Of a stretch of 64,000 nucleotides of DNA, positions 4,728-12,043 are shown piece by piece. The notes beneath the pieces were generated by a model, which saw nothing but the letters and a program-made list of their open reading frames with translations, had not been told where the DNA came from and searched no databases. The translations under genes were made by a program, and so were the position numbers. The DNA lies in the NCBI GenBank assembly GCA_903935205.1, contig CAIZQU010000114.1:62001-126000 (forward strand), in the 5' to 3' direction. How positions within the stretch are numbered: the first letter of the stretch is position 1; each line of letters begins with the position of its first letter. Source of the stretch: an uncultured cyanobacterium (lineage in GTDB: Bacteria > Cyanobacteriota > Cyanobacteriia > PCC-6307 > Cyanobiaceae).

Positions 4728-4952
4728 ATGAGTCTCGAAGACAAGATCAAGGCCACCGCCAAGAATGCTGAAGGGCGGCTTGAAGCTGCCGCAGGTGAGA
4801 TCACCGGAGACGAACAGATGAAGGCTGAGGGTGAAGCCAAGCAGGTTCAATCCCACCTCATGGATGCCGCCGGCGCTCTCAAGGACAAGGTTCAGCAAGC
4901 CGCTGCATCGGTGGGGGATGCCATCGAAGGTCTTACCAGCAAAGAAAGCTGA
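4728..4952 (+). CDS. CsbD family stress-response protein
   Basis: The product is 74 residues, MSLEDKIKATAKNAEGRLEA, continuing AAGEITGDEQMKAEGEAKQ. This is the diagnostic CsbD start (KxKATxKxxEGKxxexxGeltGDxxxxaeGkaxQ). The second half is a polar amphipathic helix (DAAGALKDKVQQAAASVGDA). CsbD proteins are small, hydrophilic and general-stress induced; the molecular role is not established. The gene stands alone and is followed nine bases after the stop by a perfect palindrome that should end its transcript. Confidence 0.88.
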   Translation: MSLEDKIKATAKNAEGRLEAAAGEITGDEQMKAEGEAKQVQSHLMDAAGALKDKVQQAAASVGDAIEGLTSKES

Positions 4953-5230: not shown

Positions 5231-5773
5231 TCATCGAGATAGGATCAAAGCTTGCAACGTCCGTCGCCGCAGACGTCGGCTCCAGCTGAATGCAGCGCCA
5301 AAGCCAAGCAGGGCAAGGGGGCCAGGCGTCGGTGCCATGGATTGAACAGCACCTACATCACGCCGGCCCTTGGAGGTGCGTAAATGGCCGAACACGTCGG
5401 TGCTGATCACGCTGCCATCCATCGGATGGATGTGTTGGTTGAGGGAACCCGCATCGGGGATCACGCCAATGAGAGGGCACGAAGCGATGGGGTAGGCACC
5501 AGAAGAAAGAAAATAAAAGTTTGGCAGGAAGCTGCCCTTGAAATCAAGCTCATAGGCAGCCAACGCCGTCATCAGGTTGGGCTGGTTTAAAAGAAGCGCT
5601 GAATTGGCAGCCGTCTGATTGGTGACGGGCTCTACGTAGGAATACGGATCTGCCGAGAAGCCACCTGCACCCGGTGCACCCGTTGGTGGTTCACCGCTGT
5701 CTCGGCCTGGTTCCCCCCCTGCACCCACCTGCCAGCAGCGCCAAGATGGCCCCAGTGTGTTGCAGGCCGGCAA
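5231..5773 (-). pseudogene. C-terminal part of a surface protein with a cyanobacterial PEP-CTERM-like sorting tail
   Basis: The C-terminus has PTPGPLALLGFGAAFSWSRR followed by LRRRT. This is the tripartite sorting signal (PGPLxLLG motif, short hydrophobic helix, Arg-rich end) seen in cyanobacterial exosortase-type substrates. Just before it, STDVFGHLRTS and RDVGAVQS resemble the end of beta-helix surface proteins (the D.xGxxR......DIGAxE signature). No signal peptide is encoded: the open frame begins with a TTG and a low-complexity stretch, and an in-frame stop lies two codons upstream. The protein is therefore either 5'-truncated or broken. A second protein with the same kind of tail is intact at 9599-10516. 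The upstream DNA is full of short GC-rich repeats, which may have caused the damage. Confidence 0.5.
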
Positions 5774-6127: not shown

Positions 6128-6844
6128 ATGGCCCGGTTGCTGAAGCGTTGCGGCCTGGCGAGCCGACGTCGGTTGACAGCCTTCGTCCCAGCGGCCGTGG
6201 TCTTGCTGGTTCTGGCGAGGTCTGTTCAGGCGGGCCCCAGCGCCCCTGGGGCTGGGGCCGGCTCCGCGGCACCGTCCACCGCGATGCCCCCTGATGGTGA
6301 CAGGTGCGGCATGCCGATGGGTCAGCGTTCCGCCGATGGCCATTTCATCGTGATGATGATTCCTCACCACGAGGGGGCCATCGCCATGGCGGAGCTGGCC
6401 CTGCAGCGCTCCAGTCGTCCGGAGATCCGGGCCCTGGCGGAGAGGATTCGCACCAGTCAGAGCCAGGAGAATGCTCAGATGCGCCGCTGGTATCGCCAGT
6501 GGTACGGCAGCGACGTGCCCACCTGGACCGTTCAGGGAATGGGCATGGGGGGTGGCAGAGAAATGAACATGGGAATGGCTATGGGTATGGGGATGGGTAT
6601 GGGGATGCCGGGTTTCGGCACCAGCCTTGCTGCCCTGCGCACGGCCCCCGGCTTTGATCGGGCATTTCTCGAGCAGATGATTGCCCACCACCGCATGGGC
6701 GTGATGATGGCCTCCCATGCCCAGTGGGGCACGGTCCATCCCGAGCTGCGGGAGCTCGAGGCGGCGATGGTGCGTGTGCAGAGCGAGGAGATCGCCCAGA
6801 TGGCTCGCTGGTATCAGCAGTGGTTCGGAAACACGAGCCGCTGA
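6128..6844 (+). CDS. DUF305 family exported metal-binding-type protein with a Met/Gly-rich linker
   Basis: I start at the ATG at 6128 (238 residues) because it gives a basic N-terminus and a hydrophobic export signal (LTAFVPAAVVLLVLARSVQA). Earlier starts add an unlikely Arg-rich leader. The protein holds two DUF305 halves. The first has DGHFIVMMIPHHEGAIAMAE (about residues 64-83), then SQSQENAQMRRWYRQWYGSD. The second has FDRAFLEQMIAHHRMGVMMA and SEEIAQMARWYQQWFG. The HH(E/R)xxxxM motifs are the conserved putative metal ligands of this ferritin-like family. Between the halves is a ~28-residue linker made almost entirely of alternating Met and Gly, suited to Cu(I) or Ag(I) binding in the periplasm. 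The MerR gene and a second DUF305 gene follow. Copper is inferred, not shown. Confidence 0.82.
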   Translation: MARLLKRCGLASRRRLTAFVPAAVVLLVLARSVQAGPSAPGAGAGSAAPSTAMPPDGDRCGMPMGQRSADGHFIVMMIPHHEGAIAMAELALQRSSRPEIRALAERIRTSQSQENAQMRRWYRQWYGSDVPTWTVQGMGMGGGREMNMGMAMGMGMGMGMPGFGTSLAALRTAPGFDRAFLEQMIAHHRMGVMMASHAQWGTVHPELRELEAAMVRVQSEEIAQMARWYQQWFGNTSR

Positions 6845-6894
6845 AGCCTCCGGGGGTGTGCCAAAGCGCTCCATTCAGGTGGCGATCGCCCAGC

Positions 6895-7323
6895 TCAGCG
6901 GTTGGCGCCAACCAGCTCGGGAGCGGCAGCAGCGGGCGTACGGCCCCCACAGGCCTCCCAGCTGTTGAGCAGGGCAAACAGCTCAGATTGCAGGTTCTGC
7001 ATCGCTGTGATCCTGTCGCCAATCTCACCGGCCTTGCTGCGGATTCGCGCCTTCAGATCGGTGCAGGTGCAGACGCCAGAGCGCCGCGCCTCAAGGATCT
7101 GCCGCACATCCGGCAACGGGATCTCCATGGCCCGCAGGGTGCGGATCAGGGCCAGTTCCGAGAACACTCCGTCAGCGAAGAGCCTGTAGCCACCGTCGCT
7201 GCGGCTGATCGGCCGGATCAGCCCTTCATCGCAATAGAAGCGGATCGTCTTGACGGTGAGGCCGGAGCGGTTGGCGACCTCGCCGATCTTGAGGGTCTGG
7301 GCAAGCGCCACTTGACTCTCCAC
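6895..7323 (-). CDS. MerR family transcription regulator, metal or redox responsive
   Basis: The N-terminal winged helix is clear: LKIGEVANRSGLTVKTIRFY, then CDEGLIRPISRSDGGYRLF. It is followed by ALIRTLRAMEIPLPDVRQIL and a long dimerisation helix. The length of 142 residues fits metal-sensing MerR proteins. Cysteines sit at GVCTCTDLK near residue 84 and at EACGG near the C-terminus, a possible metal site at the ends of the dimer helix, although the exact CueR loop (CxxxxxxxxC) is not seen. The first start is GTG at 7323; a second GTG at 7311 would remove four residues. The first overlaps the divergent promoter's -35 region, so the regulator probably controls both its own gene and the DUF305 operon. 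Confidence 0.85.
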   Translation of the reverse strand: MESQVALAQTLKIGEVANRSGLTVKTIRFYCDEGLIRPISRSDGGYRLFADGVFSELALIRTLRAMEIPLPDVRQILEARRSGVCTCTDLKARIRSKAGEIGDRITAMQNLQSELFALLNSWEACGGRTPAAAAPELVGANR

Positions 7324-7342
7324 CTAGGGGAGAGTGCATCCT
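7312..7342 (+). promoter_or_regulatory. MerR-type operator-promoter driving the DUF305-DUF3721 genes
   Basis: TTGACT (7312-7317) acts as -35. It is separated by a 19-base spacer, CTCCACCTAGGGGAGAGTG, from CATCCT (7337-7342) as a weak -10. The spacer holds a dyad (ACTCTCC….GGGGAGAGT), the standard MerR family layout: over-long spacer, dyad between -35 and -10. It points at the ATG at 7372 and overlaps the merR start. Confidence 0.78.
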
Positions 7343-7371
7343 ACGGTTGATCCGTTGGCTGCGTTCACTCG

Positions 7372-8091
7372 ATGCGCCCTGCTCCCATCGTTCTGGTGCT
7401 GCTCGGCCAGCTGGTGGCCACAGTCCCGGTGCTGGCCCAGCTGGATCCCCACCACGGCCACCATCAGCACCACCAGATGGGGACTCCAGCCCCCGCATCA
7501 TCCCCGGCCGCCGCACCCATCGATCACGGCGCCCACAGCCACGAAGTCGGTCCAGCCGGGAGCACCTACGACCTGCGCTGGCTCGACGCGATGGTGCAGC
7601 ACCACACCGGCGCCCTGCGGATGAGTGCGTTCGTGTTCGACATCGGCCAGCCAGGTGTGGGTGCACTGGCCAAGACGATCTGGCGCGACCAGGCCCAGGA
7701 GATCAAGGCGATGGGGCAATGGCGCAAAGCCTGGTACCCCGAGGCGCCCGACTATCCCGTGAGCTTGAAGAGCGGTGGCGATCCCAACAGCATGGACAGC
7801 CTGGAAGCTATGGGCGCTGCTCATATCCAAGCGATGCAGATGATGGGTTCCAGGCCCACACGGCAGAACCGCGTCACCTGGTTTCTCGAGGGAATGATCA
7901 CCCACCATGGCGGTGCGCTGATGATGGCCCACGACGCCCTCAGGAAAAGCGCCAACCCCACCATCCGCCGTCTTGCCCGCGACATCATCGCGGCCCAGCG
8001 CCGCGAAATCATCGAGCTGCGCCGCATGCTCCGCCATGACGGCCATAACAAACCCGAGTACTACCAATACGATGCGCTCTTCTCGTTCTGA
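7372..8091 (+). CDS. DUF305 family exported protein with His-rich N-terminus
   Basis: The product is 239 residues. A signal peptide (MRPAPIVLVLLGQLVATVPV, cleavage after LAQ) is followed by a histidine cluster (DPHHGHHQHHQM) and two DUF305 halves. The first half has LRWLDAMVQHHTGALRMSAF with DQAQEIKAMGQWRKAWYP; the second has FLEGMITHHGGALMMAHDAL with AAQRREIIELRRMLRHDG. These HHxGA…M motifs are the family's putative metal ligands. The gene is first behind the MerR promoter, 29 bases downstream of the -10. The His cluster suggests scavenging of Cu(II), Zn or Ni in the periplasm, complementary to the Met-rich paralogue at 6128. The two paralogues are clearly diverged rather than freshly duplicated. 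Confidence 0.84.
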   Translation: MRPAPIVLVLLGQLVATVPVLAQLDPHHGHHQHHQMGTPAPASSPAAAPIDHGAHSHEVGPAGSTYDLRWLDAMVQHHTGALRMSAFVFDIGQPGVGALAKTIWRDQAQEIKAMGQWRKAWYPEAPDYPVSLKSGGDPNSMDSLEAMGAAHIQAMQMMGSRPTRQNRVTWFLEGMITHHGGALMMAHDALRKSANPTIRRLARDIIAAQRREIIELRRMLRHDGHNKPEYYQYDALFSF

Positions 8092-8098
8092 TCAACAC

Positions 8099-8302
8099 AT
8101 GGGCGTGGCTGCGCTGATGTTGTTCTTGGCGCTGATGCAACCCAACCAGGTTCTGGCCCACGCCAAAGGTCTTTACAAGACCCAGGCTGAGGCAGAGCAG
8201 CGTGCCAGGGAGCTGGGCTGCAAGGGAACCCACCAGAACAACGGGCTGTGGATGCCCTGCAGCGGTGAGGCGATGCTGCACAAGGAGCTGAGGCAGGAGT
8301 GA
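8099..8302 (+). CDS. DUF3721 domain protein, small exported
   Basis: From the ATG at 8099 the product has 67 residues: a signal sequence (MGVAALMLFLALMQPNQVLA) and a ~45-residue DUF3721 domain, KGLYKTQAEAEQRARELGCK followed by GTHQNNGLWMPCSGE. The two Cys in GCKGTH and MPCSG are conserved in the family as I recall it. An ATG at 8072 would add nine residues and overlap the previous gene. DUF3721 proteins are common in marine and freshwater picocyanobacteria; function unknown. Its stop overlaps the next gene's GTG, and it is part of the MerR-controlled run of genes. Confidence 0.82.
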   Translation: MGVAALMLFLALMQPNQVLAHAKGLYKTQAEAEQRARELGCKGTHQNNGLWMPCSGEAMLHKELRQE

Positions 8303-8583
8303 AGCCGATGCCACAAACCCTCAGGGCTCGTTTCCGCCAGACCCATCGCGTCGTGGTTCCCCTGGCCGCCGCACCGCTGCTGCTGACGGCCGCCAGTGGT
8401 TCCTTGTACAGCCTGCTGCTGGAGCGCGGCATCGATGCCTTCTGGCTGCTCAAGCTGCACACCGGCAGGTTCGGACCCATCAACCTGCAGCCCTATTACT
8501 CGCTGCTGCTCGGCGTGTTCACCCTGGTGGTGATCACCTCCGGGCTGGCCCTGCTGCTCAGCGGCGGCAGGGCCAGGATCTGA
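8299..8583 (+). CDS. Small two-helix membrane protein (PepSY-associated TM-like)
   Basis: The product is 94 residues, starting at a GTG that overlaps the DUF3721 stop (GTGA); an ATG three codons later is an alternative. Two membrane segments, VVVPLAAAPLLLTAASGSLY and YYSLLLGVFTLVVITSGLAL, flank a short loop with LLKLHTGRFGP. The histidines before helix 1 (RQTHR) and in the loop (KLHTG) recall the short PepSY-associated membrane proteins that may bind haem or metal. I cannot show that from sequence. It is the last gene of the plus-strand operon and is followed within eight bases by the stop of the convergent glutaredoxin fusion. Confidence 0.7.
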   Translation: MKPMPQTLRARFRQTHRVVVPLAAAPLLLTAASGSLYSLLLERGIDAFWLLKLHTGRFGPINLQPYYSLLLGVFTLVVITSGLALLLSGGRARI

Positions 8584-8590
8584 ACACGGC

Positions 8591-9277
8591 TCAGGAGCCT
8601 ACGAGCATCAGGGCTCCCATCAGGGTCATGGTCAGGTTCTCGGCGACACTCACCACGCCGAGGGGCGTACGCGAGTTGCCGCCCACACAGGCGCAGTTCA
8701 GCGCGAGCCGATCGATGAACACCGCCTTGCCCACCGACACCATCCCCATCGCCCCGAGCCAGACGGCCATGGTTCCCACCAGCTGGGCAGCCACGCTGGC
8801 CTGGGGTTTGAGCAACACCCCAAGCCCCACCAGCAGTTCGATGCCGGGATAGAGGTGTCCACAGGGACGCCAACGCTGGGTCAGCAGGTCGTACTTGCGG
8901 AAGCTGGCTGCAAAGGCCTCCACATCCATCAATTTGAGCATGGCCAGCAGACAGATAGCCATCCCCATGAAGCCGCAGACCCCAGCACTCAGCACCAGGG
9001 CCATCAGGCCAGCGGTGAGAAAGACAGCCACCACCGGAGTGTAGGAAATGGCCGCGGATTCCGGCCGCAGGCCAAGCCGGGTGGCCAGCTCGGTGTAACC
9101 GCCGATTCGTTCCTGTCCTGCGAACAACTGTGGTGTGGTGGCCACCCCATGGGCCGCCTTGAAAGCCTCTACCTCCTCGCGGCTGGTGAGGCGATGGTCC
9201 TCAAAGGGAATACGCCGCTCCTGCAGCAGGCGCAAGGCTCGCAGGCCCCAGGGGCAGGGGTGGTCCGGCAGATCCAT
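8591..9277 (-). CDS. Glutaredoxin domain fused to a MauE/DoxX-like redox membrane domain
   Basis: Residues 1-70 are a glutaredoxin: PCPWG takes the place of the CPYC active site (one cysteine only), with VATTPQLFAGQERIGGYTEL as the cis-Pro TP motif and glutathione site. Residues ~78-228 hold about four membrane helices (PVVAVFLTAGLMALVLSAGV, VCGFMGMAICLLAMLKL and others) with CGH and CAC motifs, as in MauE/DoxX family redox proteins. The family couples thiol chemistry to the membrane. The called ATG removes beta strand 1 of the glutaredoxin: in-frame codons upstream still encode HAVRLYR just before MDLPDHPCPWG, but no ATG, GTG or TTG is available before a stop inside the repeat cluster at 9327. 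The gene may have lost its true start. Confidence 0.78.
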   Translation of the reverse strand: MDLPDHPCPWGLRALRLLQERRIPFEDHRLTSREEVEAFKAAHGVATTPQLFAGQERIGGYTELATRLGLRPESAAISYTPVVAVFLTAGLMALVLSAGVCGFMGMAICLLAMLKLMDVEAFAASFRKYDLLTQRWRPCGHLYPGIELLVGLGVLLKPQASVAAQLVGTMAVWLGAMGMVSVGKAVFIDRLALNCACVGGNSRTPLGVVSVAENLTMTLMGALMLVGS

Positions 9278-9598: not shown

Positions 9599-10516
9599 TC
9601 AGGCCAGACCCTTGATGCGCTGTCGCAGGCGACGGCTCAAGGAGAAAGCCATACCGGCACCGAGCAGGGGAAGGGGACCTGGCGCGGTGCTGGGACCGGG
9701 AACAGGAGGAATTGGAGGGTTAGGCGTGTTTTCAAGTATCTGGACGTTGTCTAGGAGCAGGAAGGGTGGCAAGCTGCTGGTGCCAGTAGCTGCCCTTCCC
9801 CAAGCCTCGAAAGACAGGGTTGCAGTCGCACTCGTCGGAGTGAAGGGTGAACTGGTATAGGTTTGCCAGGGAGTGAAGCCTTGATCAGCATTGGTCCAGA
9901 GAGGGGTGCTGTAATCAACGCCACCGAGATTGACTTTCCACTGTTGATTAGTAGCCCCACGCTCTCCAGATTCCTGGGCCCCAGCATACTGGAAACTCAG
10001 AACATACTGCTTCGTTGTATCGAATGTTGTGATATTTTGAGAGAGGATGGAAGCACCATAGTCTCCATCGATACCGATGAACTTGACCCCTGACCCCGAG
10101 CCTGTAAACCCGTTGCTTACAGGCGCAGGCTGATAATCAGGACCCCAGAGAAAAATATTGGTATTGCCGGGAGTGAACTTACTGGGAAAACCACCTCCCT
10201 GGTTGGGATAAGGGTTGGTGCCGACAGGGGCGAGCCGATTGTCGGCTTGGTCATTGATCACAAACGCAAAGCCATCCGATCCGTCAGATGAAACGGGAGT
10301 CTTGGTCCAGCTTGGCAGGTTCACAATATTGCCGATCTGGCCAATACCGCCAACACTGGTTGGGTAATTTGATGTGTTGATTGGACTCGAGATTTCAAAG
10401 TCACCATTCTGAACCAGGTTGGTAGCGGCCTGAGCGGAAGATCCTGCCGCCAAAGCCAGAACAGCAAGACCGGCAATGGAAGGCTTTCGCAGAGACAAGG
10501 AAAAGATGACAGGCAT
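9599..10516 (-). CDS. Exported surface protein with cyanobacterial PEP-CTERM-like sorting tail
   Basis: I start at the ATG at 10516 (305 residues) because it gives a good signal peptide: SLSLRKPSIAGLAVLALAAG, cleaved near SSAQA|ATNLV. The mature protein opens NLVQNGDFEIS, the common start of galactose-binding-like jelly-roll domains. A later PFLLLDNVQILE strand is also typical of that fold. The C-terminus has PGPLPLLGAGMAFSLSRR followed by LRQRIKGLA, the tripartite sorting signal handled by an exosortase-like enzyme. The protein is therefore probably anchored or released at the cell surface. The tail matches that of the damaged gene at 5231. No exosortase gene is in the window. An intrinsic terminator follows. 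Confidence 0.8.
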   Translation of the reverse strand: MPVIFSLSLRKPSIAGLAVLALAAGSSAQAATNLVQNGDFEISSPINTSNYPTSVGGIGQIGNIVNLPSWTKTPVSSDGSDGFAFVINDQADNRLAPVGTNPYPNQGGGFPSKFTPGNTNIFLWGPDYQPAPVSNGFTGSGSGVKFIGIDGDYGASILSQNITTFDTTKQYVLSFQYAGAQESGERGATNQQWKVNLGGVDYSTPLWTNADQGFTPWQTYTSSPFTPTSATATLSFEAWGRAATGTSSLPPFLLLDNVQILENTPNPPIPPVPGPSTAPGPLPLLGAGMAFSLSRRLRQRIKGLA

Positions 10517-12043
10517 AACTTGTAGTGAAATGCAAGCTGAATTTACCGCAATGGGCTCAGAGCCAGCCGAATCATTTGCAAATCCGCACAACTTTGCAGA
10601 TGACGCATAATAATGATGTACTCCAGCAGCGCAGTGGACGCCTGGGTATCTGCACCACACCACAACAATCCGCATGGAGCACTGCAACACGATCTCAGCT
10701 TCGTCGTCCCACCAGTCGTCATTCGTGGTAGTGCGGTTCCAAGAGGCTCGTGGAGCTTGAACGTCCCTTACCACAGCTCGCGCTCAATGAGAGCAAGATT
10801 CAATCACTGCAAAGCAAGGGCAACTGATGCTCCTGGCCACACACTGATCGTCCTGCGGACCCCATCGTGCAGGCCTGCGGGGCTGGCGAATCAGGACGAT
10901 GATCGCCTCACCCATGGGTTGACCTGGCATGCCCGTCGGCACGTGGCGCAGGCGCTGCCTAGGACTGGCTGTGAAAGCCCACAATGACGAGTTGCATGCA
11001 GGCCGGCCACGCACCCGTCGAGAACGAAACGGTGAGGGAGATGAGGGAGGTGAGGGAGCGAGCCCTGCGAACCAAACGCACCGATGGCGGCAGCCGGAGG
11101 TCTAAGCGCACCCTGACGCCTACATCACCCGTCAACACCCATGGCCGTTGCCGTGTGTCAGTAACCGGGCCGGACAAGGAGCTGATCGCCACAGGCAAGG
11201 CCGGCGACGATCTGGAGGCGACGGTGCAATGGCCAGGCGACGAAGCTCTCAAATCAACAAAACGCCAGGACGGGAATGGCAGGCGAGAGAGCAACGTCCG
11301 TAGGTTCAGCATCTCCCCGACCATGACGATTGGTTCACCCTGGACCAACCTGAATCAGCAGCAGTGTCAAATCCGGGCAACTCAGCGTCCCAGAACGATG
11401 ACCCAGCGTGGCCATCGCGGGGCGTGCGGCAGTACGCAGGAACTGCCAAGGATCGGGGCGGCATTGCAGGATCCACCTGCGCCGGTACCACTCCAGAGAA
11501 GGGCAGGAGCGCAGAGTGCGCAGCAGCGGGCTGTGGTCATCCAGCGGCGACGTTACCCCCAGACAGGGGCAGCAGGAGGATGACCAAGACATCGTCGAAG
11601 GGATCGATCCGGGTGAATCAGGACCGCCAGGCTGGAGCCAAGCATCCATCTGCAACTCAGTGCGATCGATTCGCGGAGGGCTAGGTATTGCAATGGCAAC
11701 CGCGTCGCTCTCCATTTGCTGACTCAACCCATCGGAACAGATGGCCAGTCGTCGTCCGATGATCGACTGCCACGGACGGGACAGACAGCACCAAGTTGCG
11801 GACCAGAATCAGCCGGCTGTTGTGAGGTCATAGGACCCGCCAATGAAATGATCCGCCTCGTCCGATCGCAACGCAGCCGGAGAGATGAACAGGAGTTCGG
11901 AACCCTACGACTGTCAGGAGGCTCAGGAGCTGAGACCTGGATCAGCGACGCCGCAGAGGCTGGCAGGCCAGAGGACACACCAGAGCCCACAGAGGGGCTC
12001 AGGCTGCCCCTGGGTAGCGACGTCAGAAGCCAACCATAAGGTG
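10517..12043. other. 1.5-kb gene-poor region, probably eroded
   Basis: No frame on either strand has a recognisable domain. The most protein-like piece is on the minus strand near 11400-11560, where one frame reads LLRTLRSCPSLEWYRRRWIL and CRPDPWQFLRTAARPAMATL. Upstream of it another frame takes over (PFDDVLVILLLPLSGGNV), which would fit a frameshifted relic, but I cannot name a family. The plus-strand frame 10984-11583 has a composition typical of an antisense shadow. No tRNA or known structured RNA was recognised. Confidence 0.45.

Follow-up and report, generated by a model that had tools for sequence, protein, structure and literature searches.

A probable MerR-controlled copper stress operon in a freshwater picocyanobacterium of the Cyanobium/Synechococcus order

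Known copper systems and the locus at 6128-9277

In the CueR regulon of Proteobacteria (copA, cueO), transcription is switched on by a MerR activator, and the hallmark of MerR-type promoters is a 19-20-bp spacer with a central palindrome (PMC9909328). In Bordetella pertussis, the genes copZ-prxgrx-gorB are controlled by CueR (PMC7794356). Among cyanobacteria, Synechocystis PCC 6803 possesses the copMRS/copBAC system, in which CopM is a copper-induced DUF305 protein, both periplasmic and extracellular, that binds Cu(I) tightly and whose loss makes the cells copper-sensitive; DUF305 genes of Anabaena are also copper-induced (PMC4335983). Other described systems that resemble the present one are the copper islands of Roseobacter/Paracoccus plasmids and the PepSY_TM metal reductases FoxB and CrpH (PMC13038864). 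The locus analysed here lies at positions 6128-9277 of a 64-kb stretch of DNA (the window), which lies on contig C114 of the 3.8-Mb genome of a freshwater picocyanobacterium of the Cyanobium/Synechococcus order, and its central part (7372-8583) is probably a copper stress operon, possibly responding also to silver, under the control of a MerR switch.

Six open reading frames (ORFs), found in the ORF list and the Pfam scan, fill the interval. Together with the operator, the features are:

6128..6844, + strand: COPM1, a CopM-family DUF305 protein of 238 amino acids with an N-terminal signal sequence, a Met/Gly-rich insert and two HH motifs
6895..7323, - strand: MerR-family regulator of 142 amino acids, with a GTG start inside the operator, C85-x-C87 and a single C-terminal cysteine, C125
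7312..7342, + strand: MerR-type promoter-operator, with TTGACT, a 19-bp spacer, CATCCT and the inverted repeat ACTCTCC-N7-GGAGAGT
7372..8091, + strand: D305B, a His-rich, secreted DUF305 protein of 239 amino acids with two invariant HH motifs; it is encoded by the first gene of the operon
8099..8302 (alternative start 8072), + strand: DUF3721, a small secreted protein with two conserved Cys; predicted mature N-terminus His-Ala-Lys-Gly
8299..8583, + strand: PEPSYL, a two-helix membrane protein of 94 amino acids related to the PepSY_TM region, with invariant His16 and His54
8591..9277, - strand: glutaredoxin-MauE (Grx-MauE) fusion, 228 amino acids as annotated, with a CPWG single-Cys active site and C-A-C-V-G-G in the membrane part

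A preliminary description of this DNA had named a MerR gene, two DUF305 proteins (one Met/Gly-rich, one His-rich), a DUF3721 protein, a His-containing two-helix protein and a Grx-MauE fusion; Pfam and the sequences bear this inventory out, and the operator was not mentioned in it.

With the CueR regulon, the locus shares the MerR activator, an operator of the same layout with a 19-bp spacer and, in relatives, targets that include a copper ATPase, a multicopper oxidase and a glutaredoxin-containing protein. It differs in the sensor, which has a C-x-C motif and one further Cys and lacks Ser77, in the operator arms (CTCTCC/GGAGAG) and in the targets found here, namely CopM-like DUF305, DUF3721, PepSY-like and Grx-MauE membrane fusion proteins. 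As in Synechocystis, a CopM-type secreted DUF305 copper protein is encoded in a cyanobacterium, and genes for an HME-RND pump and for an RppAB/CopRS-like pair are often found next to relatives of the locus, but Synechocystis uses the two-component system CopRS whereas the His-rich DUF305 operon is preceded by a MerR-type switch. In the Roseobacter/Paracoccus plasmid islands, cueR-, DUF305- and Grx-MauE-type genes also stand side by side, although the regulator is annotated there as a standard CueR and neither DUF3721 nor a PepSY-like gene appears in the annotation of those stretches. Finally, PEPSYL shares with FoxB and with the copper-linked CrpH conserved His next to transmembrane helices, but it has two helices, lacks the periplasmic PepSY domain and scores below the Pfam gathering threshold. 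Judged by its sequence, the locus would be a CueR-like copper operon with unusual sensor cysteines (C85-x-C87 and a single C-terminal Cys in the MerR protein).

The operator and its targets in relatives

The sequence between merR and D305B, TTGACT-CTCCACCTAGGGGAGAGTG-CATCCT (7312-7342), consists of a -35 box, a 19-bp spacer and a -10-like box, and the site carries a dyad with two 7-base arms around a 7-base centre. It has both traits of a MerR-activated promoter, the 19-20-bp spacer and an inverted repeat placed between -35 and -10. A generic search for MerR sites returned this single match in the 64 kb, against none in 60 simulated windows. The merR start codon falls within the operator, which suggests that merR is autoregulated. 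Because COPM1 and merR are convergent and the Grx-MauE gene is convergent with the D305B operon, the visible operator can drive only D305B-DUF3721-PEPSYL. The end of DUF3721 and the start of PEPSYL overlap by 4 bases, so that these two genes should be co-transcribed.

The genes, the operator, its conservation and its regulon in relatives were computed directly. Fifty-five loci were obtained by a scan of a genome collection, their genes being read with a codon-scored gene caller; neighbours were counted in the 36 loci with enough flanking DNA, and an operator was called in relatives with at most one mismatch over 14 fixed positions. D305B orthologues are present in 108 of 399 genomes of the order. 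Adjoining D305B were found a MerR gene (28 of the 36 loci), a PepSY-like gene (21), DUF3721 (20), CopM (12) and Grx-MauE (11). The operator, with the same layout, lies upstream of 38 of 53 D305B genes and 11 of 14 Grx-MauE genes, compared with 1 of 542 other genes, and on these counts a chance neighbourhood was rejected. No operator was found upstream of 25 DUF3721, 28 PepSY-like and 12 CopM genes; the first two kinds are located inside the operon. A search of the 399 genomes with the exact pattern gave 95 sites in 56 genomes, versus 4 for a reversed control. A divergent MerR gene, the operator and a DUF305-DUF3721-PepSY-like operon recur in Cyanobium/Synechococcus relatives, and the gene order, whose conservation had been proposed as a check, is repeated in dozens of them, so the association is not random.

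Further operator sites bear on the metal. They precede a P1B ATPase (L150, L154), a CueO-like multicopper oxidase (L144, L151, L165) and DUF411-Grx-MauE-multicopper oxidase operons (L137-L143). Family scans of these loci gave DUF411, which we take to be CopG-like, a copper-translocating ATPase that exceeds its cut-off, and Cu-oxidase domains for which CueO was the best-scoring model. Moreover, a copper P1B-ATPase with a CPC motif is located directly downstream of D305B or the PepSY-like gene in L042, L052 and L070, and directly behind the operon only there; the ATPases of L041 and L048 were rejected as copper ATPases, being of Ca type. CusA-like/HME-RND pumps and RppAB/CopRS-like two-component genes are also frequent neighbours. 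Outside the order, relatives of Grx-MauE occur on 285 plasmids and retain the CP[WY]G and CACxGG motifs. On plasmids of Sulfitobacter, Pseudosulfitobacter, Phaeobacter and Paracoccus, Grx-MauE has as neighbours DUF305 and a cueR gene annotated as Cu(I)-responsive, and the islands of these four alphaproteobacterial genera also carry a Cu-ATPase, a multicopper oxidase or DUF411. Copper, or else silver, is the most likely metal, since the same operator precedes Cu ATPase, multicopper oxidase and DUF411 genes and since cueR, DUF305 and Grx-MauE co-occur on plasmids; the latter association makes the strongest case for copper because it is independent and lies outside the order.

The preliminary description had spoken of a system without a P-type ATPase. 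This is correct at the locus itself, but in relatives the operator or the operon includes a copper P1B-ATPase, and the genome encodes P1B ATPases elsewhere, of copper type on contig C153 and of Cd type on contig C17. On C17 (L162, 2-2621), a standard CadR-like MerR lies beside the Cd/Zn-type P1B ATPase, an in-genome contrast to the C-x-C MerR. No HME-RND pump over the CusA/CzcA cut-off was found in the genome, and a search of the genome for DUF411 gave no match, but its positive controls were silent too.

The sensor and the identity of the metal

The MerR domain of the regulator (6895-7323) is recognised by Pfam MerR with E 3e-14, and the closest PDB relatives are CueR, PbrR and CadR. C-x-C and W-x-x-C-G are present in 25 of 25 full-length orthologues, and a second C-terminal Cys is present in none of the 25, while other cyanobacterial MerR relatives have the usual Cys and ICP pattern. 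CueR is characterised by Ser77 and two Cys in the C-terminal loop, whereas here Cys87 occupies the Ser77 position and C125 stands alone. Divalent sensors of the CadR/ZntR/MerR type have a Cys at position 77/79/82, which C87 matches, and two C-terminal Cys, of which one is lacking. By these membership tests, the regulator appears to lie outside both groups, yet in a CueR-like setting.

Several results weigh against a copper switch. The regulator is below the NCBIfam cut-off for every metal sensor model: it scores 70.3 bits with the CueR model (TIGR02044; cut-off 147.4) and 71.7 bits with the best one, CadR-PbrR (cut-off 151.45). Cys87 is aligned without gaps with CueR Ser77 and PbrR Cys78, at the position of ZntR Cys79, and the residue at position 77 is held to separate monovalent (Ser) from divalent sensors (PMC9909328, PMC11591864). 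No recognisable operator precedes 15 of the 53 D305B genes. In L160, the operator and a C-x-C-type MerR stand before an operon of desaturase-, hydrolase- and glutamine-synthetase-like genes with no obvious link to a metal; this site may be a false or unrelated target. Lastly, the neighbourhood of Grx-MauE on a Shinella plasmid contains a MerR gene and no copper genes.

The divalent signature of Cys87 and the CadR-PbrR model as best match would suit a sensor that is divalent or of broad range (Zn, Cd, Pb, Hg), with the operon as a general heavy-metal shield; the His-rich N-terminus of D305B could bind Zn or Ni, and some operators are close to a CDF gene (L148). Such a sensor is nevertheless unlikely: the regulon of relatives is specific to copper, with a CPC P1B-ATPase that exceeds the copper cut-off, a CueO-like multicopper oxidase, DUF411 and CopM-like proteins; the genome has a separate, more typical CadR beside the Cd/Zn-type ATPase on C17; and the regulator lacks the second C-terminal Cys that CadR, ZntR and MerR possess. 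Within the copper interpretation, a bolder proposal can be put forward tentatively, namely that a class of MerR copper activator peculiar to the order binds Cu(I) or Ag through a Cys-x-Cys pair where the dimerisation helix begins and through one Cys of the partner chain. Such a sensor would break the rule that gives monovalent sensors Ser77 and a two-Cys loop, and its regulon would include a secreted DUF3721 protein with its mature N-terminal His as a copper ligand and a two-helix, two-His membrane protein possibly dimerising around haem.

Gene products and extent of the operon

For the copper stress operon, we infer the following course of events, together with the metal, the residues that bind it and what DUF3721, PEPSYL and Grx-MauE do. 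A MerR dimer would occupy the dyad of the operator (7312-7342), between the -35 and -10 boxes. Surplus cytosolic metal would be bound by the thiols of C85, C87 and the partner-chain C125 (predicted ligands), which would twist the over-long 19-bp spacer and switch on transcription of D305B-DUF3721-PEPSYL. Secreted D305B would then capture copper outside the cytoplasm in a CopM-like manner, DUF3721, small and likewise secreted, would add a further metal ligand, and PEPSYL may serve in the membrane as a small partner for redox reactions or anchoring, perhaps with bound haem. In most relatives, the convergent Grx-MauE gene would be a second target of the same MerR, and its product probably connects glutathione in the cytosol with thiols or copper proteins of the periplasm by passing reducing equivalents between them.

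Both DUF305 proteins are well recognised. COPM1 matches Pfam DUF305 (E 4e-41), the PDB structure of CopM (5fej, E 5e-37) and the NCBIfam model CopM (NF049983; 93.7 bits, cut-off 90), and has the Met-rich duplicated HH motif of the CopM family (MIPHH, MIAHH). Within this family, Cu(I) binding and copper resistance are documented for the Synechocystis protein alone. D305B matches Pfam DUF305 (E 1e-29) and, with 84.2 bits, is just under the CopM cut-off of 90; H77, H78, H178, H179 and a Met are invariant in the alignment of its orthologues. The statement that the parts of the module are mostly uncharacterised does not apply to these two, as DUF305 is the copper-binding CopM family (PMC4335983), with solved structures. 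A degraded second D305B/DUF3721 copy is present in the same genome (L161, contig C113, 6857-7724).

DUF3721 is assigned to PF12518 with E 6e-18 (64.6 bits, gathering threshold 27). Nearly all orthologues have AxA-His-x-(Lys/Arg)-Gly, and two Cys, W-M-P-C and Leu-His are conserved. The AxA-His pattern implies that cleavage of the signal peptide would expose an N-terminal His, as predicted for 20 of 22 orthologues. The AlphaFold2 model (pLDDT 69) had no PDB match with E below 1, and neither DUF3721 nor the present regulon was mentioned in the literature searched. PEPSYL matches PepSY_TM (PF03929) at E 0.002, with 18.5 bits for a gathering threshold of 28.8; its orthologues match this family weakly in 15 of 15 cases (best 1.7e-5), and a profile search of the PDB gave no relatives. 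His16 and His54 are kept in the alignment, at the two helix ends, and by analogy may recall the haem-binding His of FoxB and CrpH (PMC13038864).

The glutaredoxin part of Grx-MauE is recognised at E 9e-6 (PF00462; 26.2 bits, cut-off 22.9) and the membrane part at E 5e-9 (MauE, PF07291; 36.9 bits, gathering threshold 27), with the CxC motif of that family. The active site is not a dithiol CxxC, as the single-Cys site CPWG is present in 10 of 10 aligned sequences, and C8, C195 and C197 (C195-A-C197) are invariant. A membrane redox role is plausible; thiol repair, the function given in the preliminary description, is a guess. An AlphaFold2 model was discarded (pLDDT 45, from a 10-sequence alignment). 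Where the operator directly precedes Grx-MauE in relatives, it lies about 119-144 bases before the active-site codon. In the window, this operator, seen in relatives at -119/-120, is missing, the upstream DNA is unrelated to that of relatives, and the in-frame strand LHAVRLYR is preceded by no ATG, GTG or TTG upstream of the internal Met at 9277. The segment 9280-9600 is unlike all relatives and contains a diverged 40-nt direct repeat (9371, 9431); it is possibly the scar of an insertion or rearrangement that removed the operator and the start codon. With both gone, the expression of Grx-MauE and its first beta-strand are doubtful in this genome, of which it is the sole Grx-MauE gene; the loss may reflect decay or an assembly fault.

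The preliminary description had placed all these genes under one MerR. Its view of a metal and redox system holds in outline. A conserved, mainly periplasmic and putatively metal-responsive detoxification system under MerR control does stand, but control of all six genes does not. A single module comprising both DUF305 genes and Grx-MauE is quite improbable, although the six genes are adjacent here, 11 of 14 Grx-MauE genes of relatives have the operator, and one COPM1 gene stands behind MerR and the operator in L147. Indeed, COPM1 is convergent with merR, was without an operator in 12 of 12 loci, and follows an RppAB/CopRS-like two-component pair in L038 and L170, and Grx-MauE of the window has neither operator nor upstream start codon. 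The Met-rich CopM would, from its sequence, be a copper protein beyond the direct control of the neighbouring MerR.

That the operon serves to supply plastocyanin or cytochrome oxidase with copper, and not to detoxify it, is very unlikely. In favour of such a supply, the PepSY_TM protein CrpH is suspected of reducing copper and contributes to the function of haem-copper oxidase (PMC13038864), and SCO and CcdA occur in the Sulfitobacter and Pseudosulfitobacter neighbourhoods, but MerR-type activators answer excess, the partner genes in relatives encode an efflux ATPase, RND pumps and multicopper oxidases, and the module is present in just 108 of 399 genomes though all photosynthetic members require electron carriers.

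Elsewhere in the window, a small CsbD-like stress protein is encoded upstream of the module (4728-4952, + strand), and two genes flanking it (5231-5773 and 9599-10774, both - strand) encode PEP-CTERM-like tails (PGPLPLLG...SRRLRR). A single ORF of 13,008 codons (12929-51955, - strand), among the largest conceivable in bacteria, comprises an N-terminal DUF4347, three Laminin_G_3 stretches, a Trp-rich Synechocystis C-terminal domain, RTX-like repeats and an apparent solute-binding domain close to its end.

Picocyanobacteria of the Cyanobium/Synechococcus type are abundant organisms sensitive to copper, about whose copper regulators little is known. The shared operator, which can be tested, ties four little-studied families, the His-rich type of DUF305, DUF3721, the PepSY-like two-helix protein and Grx-MauE, to copper, most likely as the metal of the regulon. 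As the sensor has copper genes for targets although its cysteines fit neither rule, this regulator would be a natural test of the determinants of monovalent versus divalent specificity in MerR proteins.

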